Below, one piece after another: positions 8,280 to 20,505 of a DNA stretch of 64,000 bases; position 1 is the stretch's first letter, and each line of letters starts with the position of its first letter. The stretch covers positions 1 through 64,000 of the forward strand of contig JAPLCP010000182.1 in the NCBI GenBank assembly GCA_026392155.1, given 5' to 3'. The DNA is from Armatimonadota bacterium (GTDB lineage: Bacteria; Armatimonadota; Armatimonadia; Armatimonadales; Armatimonadaceae). The notes under the pieces were generated by a model, which searched no databases, was not told where the DNA came from, and worked only from the letters and a program-made list of their open reading frames with translations. The position numbers were made by a program, and so were the translations under genes.

Positions 8280-11200
8280 ATGACTCGTCAATCCCGTTTT
8301 GCCGTCACTGCACTGGTGGCTGCCTCTGTCTCAATAACTGCGCCTGCTCATGCCGCGCTCACCGTGAGTCGCTTGCGGTGTGAGTACAAGACCAACCCGC
8401 TGGCCATAGATCTCGCCAAGCCGCGCCTCTCGTGGATCGTCGAGAGCAAGGAAAAAGGCCAGAAGCAGACCGCCTACCAGATCATGGTGGGCACCGCACC
8501 GGGCAAAGCAGATCTCTGGGATACGGGGAAAGTGCTCTCCGATGAGACCATTCAGATCCCCTACGATGGCCAAGCGCTGGACAGTGGCCAGCAGGCGTTC
8601 TGGCAGGTAAAGGTGTGGGATGCGAGGGGCAAGAGCAGTGTCAGTAGCCTGGCGCACTGGACCAAGGGCCTTGGCGCGAATGACTGGAAGGCGCAGTGGA
8701 TTCAGGCCGCGCTGCCCAAAGTTGCCAGTGCACTGCCGCCCATCACGCTAGAGGGGGCGAGCTGGATCTGGCTGGCGAGCGACCCGGAGAACCCGCCCGT
8801 GGGCAAGCGCAGCTTCCGTGTCCAGTTCGATGCCCCCACTGGAGCGAGCGCCCGGATCGCGCTGACGGCGGACAATAGCTATGCGGTGGCGGTGAACGGA
8901 AAGAACCTCGCCACCGCCAAGGGGAGCGACTGGAAGGTCTATAACACCTACGATCTTAAAGATTTGCTGGTGGCGGGCGCGAACACAGTGGTGGTGACGG
9001 TTACCAATGAGGGGGATGCGCCCAACCCCGCGGGGCTGATCGCCAAGCTTGTGGTCAATGGGAAAGAGTATCCAACCGGCAAGAGCTGGGAAGGCAGTGT
9101 CGCACGGCGTGCCTGGGAGCCCGTGAAGATTCTAGGGGCCGCGGGGATGGCACCCTGGGGTAAGGCGGAGCCCGGTGGCAGTGGCAATAACGCCATGACC
9201 CCACCGCCCCACTTCCGCAACACGTTTCGCGTCGAGAAGCCGGTCAAGAGAGCACTGCTCTACGCGACGGCGCTCGGGGTCTATGAGCTGGGGCTCAATG
9301 GCAAGCCTGTCAGCGACGATGTGTTTTCGCCGGGCTGGACGGAGTACAAGAAGCGCGTTCACTACCTGACCTACGACGTCACCAAGCAGCTCACCGTAGG
9401 AGCGAATGAGCTTCAGGCACAGCTCGGCGATGGCTGGTACGCGAGCTACTTGGCCTTCACCGGACGGCGGCGCTACTATGAGGGCGATCCGCGCCTCAAG
9501 CTCCAGCTCAATATCGAGTACACCGATGGCACCACGGCGACGGTGGGAACGGGGCAGGACTGGCAGTGGGCCTACGGGCAGATTCTGACTTCAGACATGC
9601 TGATGGGCGAGGAGGTGGACACGCGCAAGACGGCGACGGACTGGAAGCCGGTGCAGACGCTGACCAATCTCCCGATTGCCGTCGAGGCACACCCCGGTGA
9701 GCCGATTCGACCCGCCGCACGGATTGCCGCGATCGTGCGCACCGAGCCTAAGAAGGGGACTTTTGTCTACAATCTTGGGCAGAACCTCACCGGCTGGGCC
9801 AAGCTCACGGTCACGGGCAAGCCAGGGCAGATGGTCACGGTGCGTCACGCAGAGCGCCTGAACCCCGATGGGACGGCATATTTTACAAACCTGCGGGCGG
9901 CAAAGGCCACGGACACGTATATCTTAAAAGGCGGCACCCAGGTCCTAGAGCCCAAGTTCACGTTCCATGGCTTTCAGTATGTCGAGATCACGGGCCTCGA
10001 CACCGCGCCTGCACCAAAAGATGTGGTGGGAGTTGCCGTACACTCCACGATGGCCGACACACTGACATTTGACTCGGACAACAAGCTGCTCAACAAGCTC
10101 ACGGATAATATTGACTGGGGCTTCCGGGGCAACGCTCTGGATGTGCCCACCGACTGCCCCCAGCGCGATGAGCGGGCGGGCTGGACGGGCGATGCCCAAG
10201 TCTTCGCCAAGACCGCGATGCTCAACCGCGACACGGCGTCGTTTTTCACCAAGTGGCTGGTGGATCTGATTGAGGATGGCCAGGGGGCGGACGGAGCCCT
10301 CCCCGATGTCGCGCCCTACCTCTCGATGGTGGGCCGAGGCAACGCGGCGTGGGAAGATGCGGGTGTGGTTGTCACCTACCGCATGTACGAGATGTACCGG
10401 GATACACAGGCCATTCAAAAACACTGGGCTGGGCTGACCCGCTTCATGGAGCACCTGAACAAAGTCGCCCCCGACGGCATCCGTCAGGTAGGCTCCTACG
10501 GCGACTGGCTGCTTCTTGATGCGCCGCAGCAGTCCGCGGTGCATGGCACGGCGTATTATTTCTACTGCGCCAAGCTCATGGCCATTATGGCTGAGGCTAT
10601 CGGCAAGCCCGAAGAAGCCAAAGCCTACCGGGTGCTGACCGAGAAAGTCAAAGCCGCCTTTAACGAGAAGTTTGTCGGGGAAGATGGCAGCGTCACCGAT
10701 AAGGGCAAGGCATCGCAGACCTTCTACGCGCTGGCACTGGGCTGGGAGCTGCTCCCCAAAGAGAAACGTGCCGGAGCGCAGAAGCAGCTCGAAGGGCTAC
10801 TCGCTGCCAAGAAGAACCACCTGGCGACAGGCTTTATCGGAACGCCAGTTCTGCTCTTTGCCCTCGATGGCGTGGGGCGTACCGATCTTGCCAACCAGCT
10901 TGTCCTCAACGATGACTATCCGTCGTGGCTCTACCAAGTCAAGCTTGGCTCGACCACGATGTGGGAGCGCTGGGACGGCTGGACACCGGAGAAAGGCTTC
11001 CAGAACGCCGGGATGAACAGCTTCAACCACTACTGGCTCGGCTGCGTCAGCGAGTGGCTTACGACGGGCTTGGTGGGAATTGACACCGACGGCCCCGGCT
11101 GGAAGAAGCTCACCATCAAGCCGCGCTTCAACACCGTGCTCAACCACGCCAGCGCCAGCTATGACTCGATCCGTGGCAAAGTCTCGGCAAGCTGGAAGAA

Positions 11201-11324
11201 AAGCGGCGGCAGCGCCACGGTCAATGTCACGATTCCTGCCAATACCACCGCCCGGCTAGAGCTCCCCGGCAAGACCGAAAATCTTAGCTCCGGAACCTAC
11301 ACCTTCACGGTGAAGCTGCCCTAA
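8280..11324 (+). CDS. Alpha-L-rhamnosidase (GH78), secreted
   Basis: Signal peptide; DVPTDCPQRDERAGWTGDAQVF, GYGDWL-like (GSYGDWLLLD), TTMWERWDGWTPEKGFQNAGMNSFNHYWLGCVSEWL. Confidence 0.95.
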   Translation: MTRQSRFAVTALVAASVSITAPAHAALTVSRLRCEYKTNPLAIDLAKPRLSWIVESKEKGQKQTAYQIMVGTAPGKADLWDTGKVLSDETIQIPYDGQALDSGQQAFWQVKVWDARGKSSVSSLAHWTKGLGANDWKAQWIQAALPKVASALPPITLEGASWIWLASDPENPPVGKRSFRVQFDAPTGASARIALTADNSYAVAVNGKNLATAKGSDWKVYNTYDLKDLLVAGANTVVVTVTNEGDAPNPAGLIAKLVVNGKEYPTGKSWEGSVARRAWEPVKILGAAGMAPWGKAEPGGSGNNAMTPPPHFRNTFRVEKPVKRALLYATALGVYELGLNGKPVSDDVFSPGWTEYKKRVHYLTYDVTKQLTVGANELQAQLGDGWYASYLAFTGRRRYYEGDPRLKLQLNIEYTDGTTATVGTGQDWQWAYGQILTSDMLMGEEVDTRKTATDWKPVQTLTNLPIAVEAHPGEPIRPAARIAAIVRTEPKKGTFVYNLGQNLTGWAKLTVTGKPGQMVTVRHAERLNPDGTAYFTNLRAAKATDTYILKGGTQVLEPKFTFHGFQYVEITGLDTAPAPKDVVGVAVHSTMADTLTFDSDNKLLNKLTDNIDWGFRGNALDVPTDCPQRDERAGWTGDAQVFAKTAMLNRDTASFFTKWLVDLIEDGQGADGALPDVAPYLSMVGRGNAAWEDAGVVVTYRMYEMYRDTQAIQKHWAGLTRFMEHLNKVAPDGIRQVGSYGDWLLLDAPQQSAVHGTAYYFYCAKLMAIMAEAIGKPEEAKAYRVLTEKVKAAFNEKFVGEDGSVTDKGKASQTFYALALGWELLPKEKRAGAQKQLEGLLAAKKNHLATGFIGTPVLLFALDGVGRTDLANQLVLNDDYPSWLYQVKLGSTTMWERWDGWTPEKGFQNAGMNSFNHYWLGCVSEWLTTGLVGIDTDGPGWKKLTIKPRFNTVLNHASASYDSIRGKVSASWKKSGGSATVNVTIPANTTARLELPGKTENLSSGTYTFTVKLP

Positions 11325-11329
11325 AGTGC

Positions 11330-12700
11330 TCAGGCGGCTTTTTTGTGGTTCTCGGAAGAGGTAATGAGACTGCGGCAGACGCGGTTGCGGGTCTTTTTGG
11401 CCTGATAGAGTGCCACATCGGCGGCATCGAGAAGCTCTGTGGTCTTGGTCATGTCACGGGTGCGCTCGGCGACACCAATGCTGATGGTGACACCACGGTG
11501 CTTCCACGGAGCCGCCTGAACCGCCGCACGGATACGCTCTGCTAGGCGTGCGGCCTCTTCTTCGCCGGTGTGGGGTAGGAGCACCAGAAACTCCTCACCA
11601 CCGTAGCGTGAGGCAAAGTCGGAGATACGGATGCTGTGCTGGAGAAGTGCCCCAATCGTCTGGAGCACGGCATTGCCTGCCTGAGATCCAAAGCTATCGT
11701 TGTAAGCCTTGAAGTAGTCTAAGTCCATTAAAAGTATAGCAAAGGGCTCGTTGTAGCGTAGCGCACGGCTCCACTCGATATTAAATCGCTCCTCTAGGGC
11801 ACGGCGATTACTCAGCCCTGTCAGCGTGTCATGCGTGGCGGTTTGCTCTAGTTGCAAGTTGGCACTCTCCAGCCGCCGATTCGCCTCCTCAAGCTGAACA
11901 CTAACGGCTTCGAGCTGCTTGCTGGTAACCGTGTGCTGCTTATGGGTAGCCTGAAGCTGCTGCTCAAGCTGACGGAGCTGGCTAAAGAACTGAAGGATTA
12001 GTCCCAGGGAGATCAGGGTTCCCAGGACTGCCATCAAGAGAACATCCGCGGTTCCACTGCCACTGGCACGAGCATCTTCTTCCAGGGTGTGGGTGAGCTT
12101 CTCTGCCGCCTCGCGCATCCGTAGCGCGGTGGACAGGCTTAGCTTGCCCGGCTTAACCGTCTCCTGGTAGAACGCTTGCCAAGCAGGCTCCATGGTCTGG
12201 ACAGCAAGCGGAGCGCTTTGCTTGATCTCGTTACGAATCTGGCTCATTCGTGCAAGGTCTTTTCGGAGGTCGCTTCCCGGTTTCTGGCTGAGCTGGAGAT
12301 AGGAGCGCAGTGCCATTGTCTGAAGTGTGCCCGCTAGTCGTGTGGCACGGAGTGCCCGGACACTGCCTCGTGCCTCTTGCCAGGCAAAGAGCATCATCCC
12401 CGAGGGGAAAAGACAGATCAGCACCAGCACTGTCAGCAGGAGAGCCCCGTAGCGATTGGTGACGGTTGAGGGAGTGGCAAGAAAGCGGCCCAGAAGCCCC
12501 ATCAGTAGCGGAAGGACATCCACCATCCAGAGCCAGGGAGTGCTTCTCTGCGCTATCCAGAGTCCCGTTGGCAGAGGGGTTCCCGACTGAAGCGCCACAA
12601 AAATCGTGGCGAGTATTGGAAAAAGTAAGCCAATGGGAAGTAGGAGGCTCGCCAAAAAGGGGCGTCCTTGAAACTTTTGTTTGGGCGAAGCATTCCTCAT
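11330..12700 (-). CDS. Diguanylate cyclase (GGDEF), membrane-anchored with coiled coil
   Basis: THDTLTGLSNRRALEERF, ILLMDLDYFKAYND, ASRYGGEEFLVLLPHT. Confidence 0.93.
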   Translation of the reverse strand: MRNASPKQKFQGRPFLASLLLPIGLLFPILATIFVALQSGTPLPTGLWIAQRSTPWLWMVDVLPLLMGLLGRFLATPSTVTNRYGALLLTVLVLICLFPSGMMLFAWQEARGSVRALRATRLAGTLQTMALRSYLQLSQKPGSDLRKDLARMSQIRNEIKQSAPLAVQTMEPAWQAFYQETVKPGKLSLSTALRMREAAEKLTHTLEEDARASGSGTADVLLMAVLGTLISLGLILQFFSQLRQLEQQLQATHKQHTVTSKQLEAVSVQLEEANRRLESANLQLEQTATHDTLTGLSNRRALEERFNIEWSRALRYNEPFAILLMDLDYFKAYNDSFGSQAGNAVLQTIGALLQHSIRISDFASRYGGEEFLVLLPHTGEEEAARLAERIRAAVQAAPWKHRGVTISIGVAERTRDMTKTTELLDAADVALYQAKKTRNRVCRSLITSSENHKKAA

Positions 12701-15434: not shown

Positions 15435-15916
15435 ATGGCGAAAAAACACGGGCTTGATCCCAATATCGCCTGGGCCAGCTTTGGGGCAGCGACAGCGGGA
15501 TTCTCTGCGATGGGCTGGGGGAGGCGATAGAGAAGCTGCCCCGTGTGCGTCTTGAGCCCTTTGACACCGCTGCGCTTCGCTTGGAGGCGGCTCAGCTCCA
15601 GCAGCAGGCGCTCATTGAGCCGGATCGCGTGACGGCGGACTCCATCTCTCGCCGTGCCGATGCTCTGGAGCGGCGTGCAGAGGCCCACGAGCACTCGGCG
15701 CTACTCGCCAAGCGTGCCGCCGCGCTCCGTGCCGAGATTCTGGCGCAGATCGAGACGCTTCGGGAGGGGCTTGCTGGACACCAGCTCGAAGACGGTGTCG
15801 GGCCGACGGTTGCCTTTGCGGAGCTTTCTGACACGGCCCGCCGGGTGGCCCAAGAAGCCTCCGCCGCCGCCGAGGCCCGCCAGGAGCTAGCGCAGGTGCA
15901 GCGACTCGGCGGATAA
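15435..15916 (+). pseudogene. Hypothetical alpha-helical protein, apparently frameshifted (intact 3' part 15545-15916)
   Basis: MAKKHGLDPNIAWASFGAATAGFSAMGWGRR* followed in another frame by ...EAIEKLPRVRLEPFDTAALRLEAAQLQQQ...; one extra G in the G5 run 15517-15521 fuses them. Confidence 0.5.
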
Positions 15917-16168
15917 ATGCAGCAAGTAGCCCGTGTGCCGTGCCAGCTCAAAGGCAAACACGAGGCACCAGAAAACCGTCACCCAAGGCGGCTTGGCCCA
16001 GCAGCGCCACTCTTTCACGCCCTTTGCGGCGGCAACAATATAGCAAATCGCCGAGAGCCCCGAGAGCGCGAGCAGGGCGTACTTGCCCGTAAAGATCAGC
16101 ACCAGAAAGGCGGCCTTGCAGAACGTAAACGCCCAACCCTCCCAGGCCTTTCCCGTCGGGTCTTTCAT
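15887..16168 (-). CDS. Small hypothetical membrane protein
   Basis: 93 aa with about three TM segments. Confidence 0.6.
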   Translation of the reverse strand: MKDPTGKAWEGWAFTFCKAAFLVLIFTGKYALLALSGLSAICYIVAAAKGVKEWRCWAKPPWVTVFWCLVFAFELARHTGYLLHLSAESLHLR

Positions 16169-18044: not shown

Positions 18045-19430
18045 TCACTTCAGAACCGCCAGCTGTAGACCACTTGGGGCAGCGGGCTTGCGGCCTCGGT
18101 GGAAGACATTGTACTCGCAGAAGCTGACGGCCTCGCCGTTTTCGTTGAGGAGCTTGGTGCAGCACTGATCCACGCGCTTCTGGTCCCAGGTGTGGGCGTC
18201 CATGAAGGGCTTGACAACGATCCGAAACGTCCGGCGGCCCACGGCCTGGGGATCGTTGCGGAGGGGCAATAAATCCTTCACGCCGCTGTGGGCGTAGAGC
18301 GTCATTAAATCCCGAAGCGTGCGGCCTGCGCGCAGGTTCACCGTGTCGCTCCAGACGCGTTTGAGGGCACCCTCGATCAAGCCCGAGAAGCTGATCTTGT
18401 CGGAGAAGAGATCGAGATAGCGCGCCACGTCCAAGTGGCGTGGGAGGGGCGTTAAAGTGCTCCGTTTTTCGTCGAGAATCCCGTAGGTCAGGACGCAGCA
18501 GTCGGGGTGGGAGCAGGGGAGCCCCACAAAGTCCGAGAGTGACAGCGCACCGTCGGTCTGGGCCACGAGGCGCTCTAGAACCCCGGTCAGCGTGAGCCGC
18601 GAGCCGGGATCGTAGCCGTGCTCGTAGCGCCCGTTGTTCATCACGGGCTGGTAGGTAATCCCACAGATCGTCTCATGAGCCAGCGCAAACCGATAGAGCT
18701 CCCCAATCTCATCGTCGTTGACCCCCGCCTCGACCGTCGGCACGAGGTTGATAAAAAGCCCCGCATCCGTGGCGATCCGTAGCGCCTCCTGCTTGCGCGC
18801 CACCAGGTCTTTGCCGTAGAGCCGCTCATGCACCTCGGGGCGGAAGCTGCCATAGGAAAAGTACAGCTCGATCCGCTCTTTGCGGGTTTTGAGCGCCTCG
18901 ACAAGCTCCTTGCTTTGGGTAAGCCGCAGGCCATTGGTATTGATCACGACGCGGTCAATGGGATACTCCAGCGCCATGTCCAGCAGCTCGATAAAGCGCG
19001 GGTGAATCGTCGGCTCCCCGCCGGAGAGCATCAGCACGTCTAAGCGGCTCTGCGTGCGAAAGAAGCTATCGAGCCGTCGCCGCGCCTCGGTGTCGTCCAT
19101 CATCTCATGGCCACGGGCGTCGGCGTAGCAAGTGGGGCAGCGCAGGTTGCAGGCTTGCGTGATCTCTAGGAGCAGCACGCAGGTCGGCGGGCCATCCGCA
19201 CACTCCGTCCCCGGCCCACAGCACCCACCTCCCGCGCTCCTGTCCACCGCGTAGGTGCGAAACCTAAGATACTCCGCCGCATTGCTCGCCAGCAGCGCCG
19301 TGCTCTCCCCGTGGCGTGCGCAATTCTGCCGCATCCAGATACGCCCACCGTCTTCGTAGATCGTCGCGGATACCGAGCGCAAGCAAGTCGGGCAAAGGCC
19401 GGTTGTTTCTTCCGTGAAGGGGGATGTCAT
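18045..19430 (-). CDS. Radical SAM protein of tetraether lipid synthase (Tes/MJ0619)-like type
   Basis: CNLRCPTCYA (CX3CX2C), N-terminal LCPTCLRSVSATIYEDGGRIWMRQNCARHGE, CSHPDCC, C-terminal FRIVVKPFMDAHTWDQKRVDQCCTKLLNENGEAVSFCEYN. Confidence 0.82.
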   Translation of the reverse strand: MTSPFTEETTGLCPTCLRSVSATIYEDGGRIWMRQNCARHGESTALLASNAAEYLRFRTYAVDRSAGGGCCGPGTECADGPPTCVLLLEITQACNLRCPTCYADARGHEMMDDTEARRRLDSFFRTQSRLDVLMLSGGEPTIHPRFIELLDMALEYPIDRVVINTNGLRLTQSKELVEALKTRKERIELYFSYGSFRPEVHERLYGKDLVARKQEALRIATDAGLFINLVPTVEAGVNDDEIGELYRFALAHETICGITYQPVMNNGRYEHGYDPGSRLTLTGVLERLVAQTDGALSLSDFVGLPCSHPDCCVLTYGILDEKRSTLTPLPRHLDVARYLDLFSDKISFSGLIEGALKRVWSDTVNLRAGRTLRDLMTLYAHSGVKDLLPLRNDPQAVGRRTFRIVVKPFMDAHTWDQKRVDQCCTKLLNENGEAVSFCEYNVFHRGRKPAAPSGLQLAVLK

Positions 19431-19714
19431 CGTCCAATTGACCCAAAGCATACTAGGAGAATTCCGAGGATGACGAGCACGAGGAGGGCACCGCTGATGA
19501 GCAGGCCCATGCAGAAGTAGGGGTATTGTTGGCGGTAGCGGAAGTAGACGATAATGCTTCCGATCATACCGATCCCTGTGGCGATGGCAACGAGGCCAAC
19601 CAGCACTCCGATAATGGCATCAAGCGCCGGGATCTTGGTAAACGCCTGCGACGGCAGGTCGCGTTGCAGCGCCATCCCGCACTGAGGGCAGCGGTAGTTT
19701 TGATACTGTTGCAA
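19427..19714 (-). CDS. Small zinc-ribbon plus two-TM membrane protein
   Basis: LQQYQNYRCPQCGMALQRD then hydrophobic IIGVLVGLVAIATGIGMIGSIIVYF and CMGLLISGALLVLVILGILLVCF; stop overlaps ATG of the radical SAM gene (ATGA). Start codon (TTG 19714) uncertain. Confidence 0.6.
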   Translation of the reverse strand: MQQYQNYRCPQCGMALQRDLPSQAFTKIPALDAIIGVLVGLVAIATGIGMIGSIIVYFRYRQQYPYFCMGLLISGALLVLVILGILLVCFGSIGR

Positions 19715-19858
19715 AGGGTTTCTCCGACACCGCGGATTGAAATCCCGGCTAGCGAAGTCAAGTCCGCCTCCGCGGACTGTAGATTCGGGAGTCCCCGACG
19801 GGGGACTTTTCTTCTGGAGCCGCGAATTTATTCGACGGCTTTGGCAAAGGGTTTCTCC
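19711..19858. repeat. Hairpin-rich intergenic element flanked by 15-bp direct repeats
   Basis: gcaaagggtttctcc at 19711-19725 and 19844-19858; interior hairpins AGTCCGC-ctcc-GCGGACT, GTCCCC-gacg-GGGGAC, CGAAT-tt-ATTCG. Confidence 0.75.
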
Positions 19859-20505
19859 TTGGCGAGCTTGTAGATAAAGAAGGCAAGGCCGACCAGACAG
19901 ACCCACTGGGCCGTGGAAAGGCCCGCATGACGATCTGCCCCCGAGCGGAAGAACTCGACGGTGAAGCGGGCGGGGCAGTAGAGCACGCCTTGGAGATACC
20001 AGAGGCCGTTCTCGGCGGGCCTACGCCACTTTTCGACGAGCAGCAAGACGACAAAGATCACCGCGCAGGCGGCGGAGAGATAGAGCTGGGTGGGATGGTG
20101 CCCGGCGATGGCCCACGGGAGCGTGCACTCTCGTCCGCCACAGCATCCGCCCAGAAAGCAACCCCAGCGCCCGACGGCCTCCCCAGCCATGAGCGCGACG
20201 GCAAAGAGATCCCCCGTGGGTCGGATCAGGCCAAGGCGTTTTTTGGCGAGTATCACGGCCAAGTAGCCGCCCACAATCCCACCTAAGACGCTCTTGCCGG
20301 GGCCGCCACTGGTGGCGAGAAACTGCCCAAGGTTGGCACCAACCAGCCCCCCAACCAGCCCTGTCATGGCAATAAAGCCCATCCCCTCAGTGAGCAAGCG
20401 GCGCTTCTTGGCAAAGAGGCAGAAGGTCAGAACGCCGATAAGATAGGCAAGGCCGAAGGTCCACGAAGCCGACGTCAGGGGCGGCAGTGCAGTCAGCGGC
20501 TTCAT
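19828..20505 (-). CDS. Prolipoprotein diacylglyceryl transferase (Lgt)-like protein
   Basis: VGANLGQFLATSGGPGKSVLGGIVGGYLAVILAKK...GEAVGRWGCFLGGCCGGRECTLPWAIAGHHPTQLYLS; multi-TM. Confidence 0.82.
   Translation of the reverse strand: MKPLTALPPLTSASWTFGLAYLIGVLTFCLFAKKRRLLTEGMGFIAMTGLVGGLVGANLGQFLATSGGPGKSVLGGIVGGYLAVILAKKRLGLIRPTGDLFAVALMAGEAVGRWGCFLGGCCGGRECTLPWAIAGHHPTQLYLSAACAVIFVVLLLVEKWRRPAENGLWYLQGVLYCPARFTVEFFRSGADRHAGLSTAQWVCLVGLAFFIYKLAKEKPFAKAVE

Follow-up and report, generated by a model that had tools for sequence, protein, structure and literature searches.

A radical SAM gene of the Tes superfamily that travels with an Lgt-like gene, and often with a small late-Cys membrane protein, in bacteria

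The stretch of DNA analysed here (the window) comprises 64,000 nucleotides from an Armatimonadota genome that is 96.6% complete, and carries one example of a small set of genes that recurs in many phyla of bacteria. The set consists of a gene for a Tes-like radical SAM (rSAM) protein, a gene for an Lgt-like integral membrane protein and, in many cases, a gene for a small membrane protein with a cysteine close to its C-terminus. The likely role of this cassette is to make an unusual membrane lipid, or to attach one. In the reading that we prefer, to which we give a probability of about one in three, it would be a dedicated lipid-modification and lipidation cassette, in which the rSAM protein alters a lipid, the Lgt-like protein uses it and the small protein accepts it. 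The parts belong to known superfamilies, while their combination appears to be new. Bacterial Tes homologues have been described by the hundred, as hits with no tested function, and offered as makers of brGDGTs (PMC8941075, PMC11868695). Subscription papers aside, we found no literature that links a Tes-like rSAM protein to an Lgt paralogue or to a small cysteine protein.

Gene order in the window and its recurrence

The genes of the window that are considered here all lie on the minus strand:

19828-20505, minus strand: Lgt-like integral membrane protein of 225 aa, first gene of the cassette (PF01790, 92 bits)
19427-19714, minus strand: small membrane protein of 95 aa with one CPxC knuckle and hydrophobic helices, the last helix ending ..LGILLVCFGSIGR
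18045-19430, minus strand: Tes-like (class D) radical SAM protein of 461 aa (PF04055 and the HMPTM zinc-ribbon PF23545)
16165-~17985, minus strand: S15/CocE-type alpha/beta hydrolase (PF02129 and PF08530), between the rSAM gene and the 93-aa gene
15887-16168, minus strand: membrane protein of 93 aa with a ..GWAFTFCKAAFLVL.. motif (GWAFTFCK), its start overlapping the hydrolase stop (ATGA)

Transcription would run from the Lgt-like gene through the 95-aa gene to the rSAM gene, the last two sharing an ATGA (19427-19430); the co-direction of these three genes, their coordinates and the overlap are as an earlier note on this DNA had given them. The 95-aa gene begins with a TTG codon 113 bases past the end of the Lgt-like gene, with GGAG upstream, and its TGA stop overlaps the ATG of the rSAM gene. 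The same note had called its product a zinc-ribbon membrane protein. The membrane part of this description holds, but the zinc ribbon amounts to half of one, with a single CPxC knuckle and no Pfam zinc-ribbon match over the cut-off; a copy from the same genus has two knuckles. The operon probably continues to the hydrolase and the 93-aa protein. In further families of the same order, and outside the phylum as well, homologues of the GWAFTFCK gene lie directly behind the rSAM gene; the 93-aa gene is therefore a probable member of the operon, with the hydrolase as a probable local insertion. In neighbourhood maps the hydrolase, which is also present in the same genus, falls outside the wider cassette. 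The 93-aa protein had no match in Pfam or NCBIfam, and resembles the front of DUF4395 (PF14340).

The interval between the Lgt-like and small-protein genes contains a 15-bp direct repeat, GGAGAAACCCTTTGC, at 19711-19725 and 19844-19858 (minus strand). The repeat flanks a stretch of ~118 bp with GC-rich inverted repeats (AGTCCGCGGAGGCGGACTT at 19760-19778). This has the look of a small insertion element, and the flank duplicated with it would provide the ribosome site and TTG start of the 95-aa gene. The core pattern of this element had three matches in the genome, compared to two for a control pattern.

Conservation of the operon in relatives, on which the earlier note had made its proposal depend, was found well beyond the phylum. 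The rSAM gene was present in 24 of 101 genomes of the phylum, and 21 of these 24 also had the Lgt-like paralogue, mostly on the same contig and beside the rSAM gene (Fisher 8e-19), whereas none of the other Lgt hits in the 101 genomes was assigned to this paralogue. A scan of the genome collection yielded 80 loci from Bacteroidota, Planctomycetota, Bacillota, Actinomycetota, Pseudomonadota, Chloroflexota, Acidobacteriota, Armatimonadota and archaea, with the Lgt-like/rSAM cassette itself in at least eight bacterial phyla. At 58 of the 80 loci the Lgt-like gene lies beside or very near the rSAM gene, always co-directional and in many cases overlapping by a few bases. Since these 80 loci are the best tblastn matches, we turned in addition to 198 evenly sampled Bacteroidota genomes, in which the Lgt-like gene occurred in 17 of 18 rSAM-positive genomes and in 1 of 180 rSAM-negative ones (Fisher 2e-22). 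Furthermore, the distances between rSAM proteins correlate with those between the Lgt-like proteins (Mantel r 0.83, 0/999 permutations). On a Mycobacterium branderi plasmid, the existing annotation lists in the same order a “prolipoprotein diacylglyceryl transferase family protein”, two hypotheticals and a “radical SAM protein”.

It could be argued that the two genes are chance neighbours, or that the Lgt-like gene is a mere duplicate lgt. The gene order does vary (Lgt-rSAM at 44 of the 58 loci, reversed at 14), and the Lgt-clade loci without an Lgt-like neighbour, most of which lie at a contig edge, include a few from Planctomycetota that do not. This explanation is refuted by the co-occurrence and adjacency across phyla, and we consider it very improbable. 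In Flavobacterium davisii (loci L140/L196), the Lgt-like gene beside the rSAM gene is split in two frames, which may represent a pseudogene or a sequencing error.

The radical SAM protein

The earlier note had placed the rSAM protein in the MJ0619/tetraether lipid synthase (Tes) family. This assignment stands at the level of the superfamily, by sequence and by predicted fold, but not as membership of Tes itself. A sequence search matched Tes MJ0619 (7TOL) at 1e-46, and the AlphaFold2 model (pLDDT 85.6) had 7TOL as its best match in the PDB over the full length (TM 0.77/0.72, E=2e-32), the next fold reaching a TM of only 0.39. The overall fold of the model is that of Tes, and its domains follow in the same order: rubredoxin-like domain, radical SAM core, C-terminal cluster domain. 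However, the protein scored 184 bits against the Tes model of NCBIfam (NF045702), for which the curated cut-off is 450 bits and three control genomes pass (M. jannaschii, S. acidocaldarius and M. acetivorans are among the five listed). In a tree of 107 sequences, made by a quick method with SH-aLRT support only, the archaeal Tes clade (96) stood apart both from the group of TrsS-type proteins and from a clade of Lgt-linked proteins (97). The window protein falls inside the Lgt-linked clade and outside that of archaeal Tes, from which it also differs in being genetically tied to an Lgt-like gene.

At the level of residues, the rubredoxin-type ligands C13/C16/C37/H40 and the RS cluster C94/C98/C101 are kept, the latter being the CX3CX2C core that had been pointed out before. 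The C-terminal cysteines are C306/C311/C423/C424/C438, of which C311, C423 and C438 align with the conserved C338, C455 and C470 of Tes and are also kept in the order to which the window belongs; by their conservation, the three Tes residues are putative ligands of the C-terminal cluster. Of the N-cluster ligands C73/C77/C80/H83 of Tes, only C77 aligns in the window protein, where the nearby extra cysteines C70, C71 and C84 may replace the others. Met439 and Tyr459, which are invariant in 1000 archaeal homologues (PMC9433317), correspond to Lys407 and Leu427. Thus, most N-cluster ligands as well as Met439 and Tyr459 have been replaced, which again speaks against Tes membership. In about half of the Lgt-linked rSAM proteins, including those of Bacteroidota, Bacillota and their tree neighbours, the three C-terminal cysteines are gone, and one Tes mechanism shared by the whole family is therefore unlikely. 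C84, C306 and C424, by comparison, are invariant in 86 of 86 members of the clade.

These features bear on a reading in which the rSAM protein is a synthase of membrane-spanning lipids that couples two acyl-chain ends, as in Tes and Mss, with the Lgt-like protein as a lipid-handling partner. The full-length Tes fold and the three retained cysteines of the window protein are consistent with it. The Tes variants M439A and Y459F/L are active (PMC9433317), so that the changes at Met439 and Tyr459 do not exclude coupling, and Armatimonadota have been put forward as potential producers of related lipids and as a phylum with Mss hits (PMC11868695). Mss, which we compared by description only, is likewise a radical SAM enzyme joining acyl-chain ends, and Mss models are reported to superpose on Tes (PMC13274423). 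The loss of the cysteines in half of the clade argues against such a mechanism as a general one, and the Lgt partner would be left unexplained. A search of the 96.6% complete genome for a PlsA/Ger-type ester reductase (DUF2229, PF09989), the partner of Mss, gave no match, although the T. maritima control was positive; the specific link to GDGT-type lipids that had been drawn earlier is accordingly not supported. Many of the carriers are mesophilic bacteria. To our knowledge, no spanning lipids of such kind are known in many of these mesophiles. We therefore regard spanning-lipid synthesis as unlikely for the cassette at large, while coupling to a membrane-spanning lipid is possible in the window’s own subgroup, which keeps the C-terminal cysteines.

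The best-scoring NCBIfam model was in fact that of the (seleno)protein TrsS (NF045646), at 227 bits. C84 and C306, which are absent from archaeal Tes, and C424, absent from most of them, are shared by the window protein with TrsS. This raises the alternative that the rSAM protein functionalises a membrane lipid, or a molecule resembling a quinone, by different radical chemistry such as the insertion of sulfur or a methylation, in which case the TrsS-type enzymes would be its closest relatives in function. In its favour, the Tes reaction passes through a lipid-sulfur intermediate (PMC9433317), and DUF4395 and PEMT/ICMT genes occur in subgroups B and C of the cassette. On the other side, the score lies below the TrsS cut-off of 490 bits, and the TrsS-type loci, which form a separate branch, carry a DVU_1556/ArsM-like methyltransferase where the window protein is paired with Lgt. 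On balance this alternative seems doubtful to us. Membership of TrsS proper was rejected on the score and on the lack of a TrsM-type methyltransferase among the neighbours, and a role in defence was rejected as well, PADLOC having given only weak matches to viperin models that cover the shared radical SAM core.

The Lgt-like protein and the small late-Cys protein

The only significant PDB match to the AlphaFold2 model of the Lgt-like protein (pLDDT 94) was E. coli Lgt (5AZB, TM 0.71/0.58). In spite of this shared fold, its scores fall far short of the curated equivalog cut-offs (34 bits where TIGR00544 requires 119), and in a tree of 58 Lgt-like and 11 canonical rows, the operon-type proteins of all phyla grouped in a single clade (SH-aLRT 99), separate from canonical Lgt. 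A genome search for a second, canonical lgt found it on contig C144 at 11118-11837 (222 bits). With this housekeeping Lgt elsewhere in the genome, the operon copy is a separate paralogue.

In E. coli Lgt, phosphatidylglycerol is held by Arg143 and Arg239 (PMC4728403), within a network that also includes Tyr235, Glu243 and Arg246 (PMC4728403, PMC8689077). Equivalents of the two arginines are found in 58 of 58 Lgt-like proteins (R113 and R180 in the window), and those of the other three residues are mostly kept, as in canonical Lgt. By contrast, His103 of the HGG motif, which is essential for cysteine lipidation by the E. coli enzyme (PMC4728403), has no equivalent in any of the 58, most of which have Leu, Val, Ile or Met at this position (Leu74 in the window). 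The residue is present in five of seven canonical Lgts of the phylum, but the housekeeping Lgt of the window genome itself has Phe there, in GGMTSFGG instead of the SFHGG motif; His103 is thus not universal in canonical Lgt. Its loss from the Lgt-like proteins is consequently suggestive rather than decisive, and as a mark of the paralogue on its own it is weakened. The GCF..GCC pattern in place of GRxGNFIN, previously singled out as special, turned out to be ordinary. GRIGC[LF]..GCCYG also occurs in the housekeeping Lgt and the canonical Lgts of the phylum, and we rejected it as an active-site change.

The third part of the cassette is a small protein encoded right after the rSAM gene, often with an ATGA overlap, or between the Lgt-like and rSAM genes. 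It has two or three predicted helices. A loop rich in K/R leads into the last of them, which closes with a cysteine that is usually 4-12 residues away from the C-terminus (for example ..LIGLGICGTLMS and ..LLNAACFGLVLVSF); homologues of the 95-aa protein from the same genus and the same order have this late Cys as well. When called by a hydropathy rule, with other long ORFs of the same loci as controls, a late-Cys membrane protein was found right after the rSAM gene in 29 of 57 cassettes compared to 2 of 171 control ORFs (p=1e-18). With the whole cassette taken into account, 50 of 74 had such a protein; some of the 74 had none by this rule. More K/R residues precede than follow the last helix in 55 of 58 proteins, which by the positive-inside rule places the Cys on the predicted outside. 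Several loci carry tandem copies. For the late-Cys proteins that were tried, Pfam and NCBIfam gave nothing but zinc-ribbon matches and hits at the level of chance, and it is from position and pattern only that we infer common descent across phyla. A C-terminal ..FH is common to the small cysteine proteins of Bacteroidota and one Pseudomonadota MAG (loci L104, L115, L117, L126, L130, L133, L138, L144 and L192), hinting at a conserved tail motif.

The small protein might instead be the substrate of the rSAM protein in a RiPP-like maturation, receiving a cross-link or thioether at the late Cys, with a lipid anchor added by the Lgt-like protein. Such maturation would fit the strict neighbourhood, the tandem copies, the near-fixed position of the Cys and the short tail, as well as the additional cysteines C84, C306 and C424 conserved in the rSAM clade. 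It would fit poorly with the topology, in which the late Cys is predicted outside and the rSAM protein is cytosolic. No leader-like region or peptide-recognition domain was seen, and the closest solved structure is that of a lipid enzyme. We consider this explanation distinctly unlikely.

Proposed mechanism and related cassettes

In subgroups B and C, DUF4395 (PF14340) genes join the cassette, and several loci have genes for PEMT/ICMT-type methyltransferases (DUF4395/PEMT/ICMT loci L073, L077, L080, L083 and L208). Together, the lipid-tail fold of the rSAM protein, a partner with a phosphatidylglycerol site, the PEMT-type methyltransferases and the lipobox-like late Cys lead to the reading that we prefer, in which a lipid tail would be changed, the product used by the Lgt-like protein and the small protein would be the acceptor. 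The suggestion of the earlier note that the pathway may act on a lipidated substrate comes close to this reading. In the first step, the soluble Tes-like rSAM protein would act on a phospholipid, most likely phosphatidylglycerol, taking a hydrogen from the end of an acyl chain and modifying or coupling this chain; Tes crystals have been found to bind bacterial phosphatidic acid (PMC9433317). The Lgt-like protein would then bind the modified lipid at the outer face through its retained two-arginine site and move the diacylglyceryl part. The acceptor would be the late Cys of the small membrane protein at the predicted outer face, resembling a lipobox placed at the C-terminus. The data show that the genes are linked, which folds their products have, which residues are kept or lost and that the late Cys recurs; the substrates, the product and the order of the steps are our inference.

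The linkage of the genes, the distance correlation, the Tes fold, the retained Arg pair, the late Cys and the PEMT/ICMT genes count in favour of this tentative mechanism. Counting against it are the absence of a His at the His103 position, the cassettes in which the hydropathy rule finds no late-Cys protein, and the location of the rSAM and Lgt active sites on opposite faces of the membrane, by which a flip step would be needed. In its boldest form, the Tes-like rSAM protein would prepare a special lipid that the Lgt paralogue attaches to a C-terminal Cys, amounting to a second, C-terminal type of bacterial protein lipidation; this is conceivable, if unlikely.

Should the preferred model be right, the lipid, the type of lipoprotein or both would be new. 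Many Tes-like proteins sit in the Lgt-linked clade, in the company of an Lgt paralogue and a membrane protein with a cysteine tail. This calls for caution, in metagenomes and in palaeoclimate work, before every bacterial Tes match is taken for a gene of membrane-spanning lipids. The named partner genes make the true function testable in culturable bacteria.

Two further observations concern the TrsS-like relatives. Another genome of the same phylum (G038, L072:2941-4440) encodes a TrsS-like rSAM protein with an in-frame TGA (..APC-U-PADGG..), a candidate selenoprotein, and no Lgt-like gene was found there. There is also a sister cassette, in which a Tes/TrsS-like rSAM gene is accompanied by a DVU_1556/ArsM-like or other methyltransferase gene. 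It was seen at loci L090, L094, L096, L105, L106, L110, L113, L124, L163, L188 and L190, and its hosts include Chloroflexota, Bacillota, Nitrososphaerota, a Thorarchaeote, a Mycolicibacterium plasmid and a haloarchaeal plasmid.
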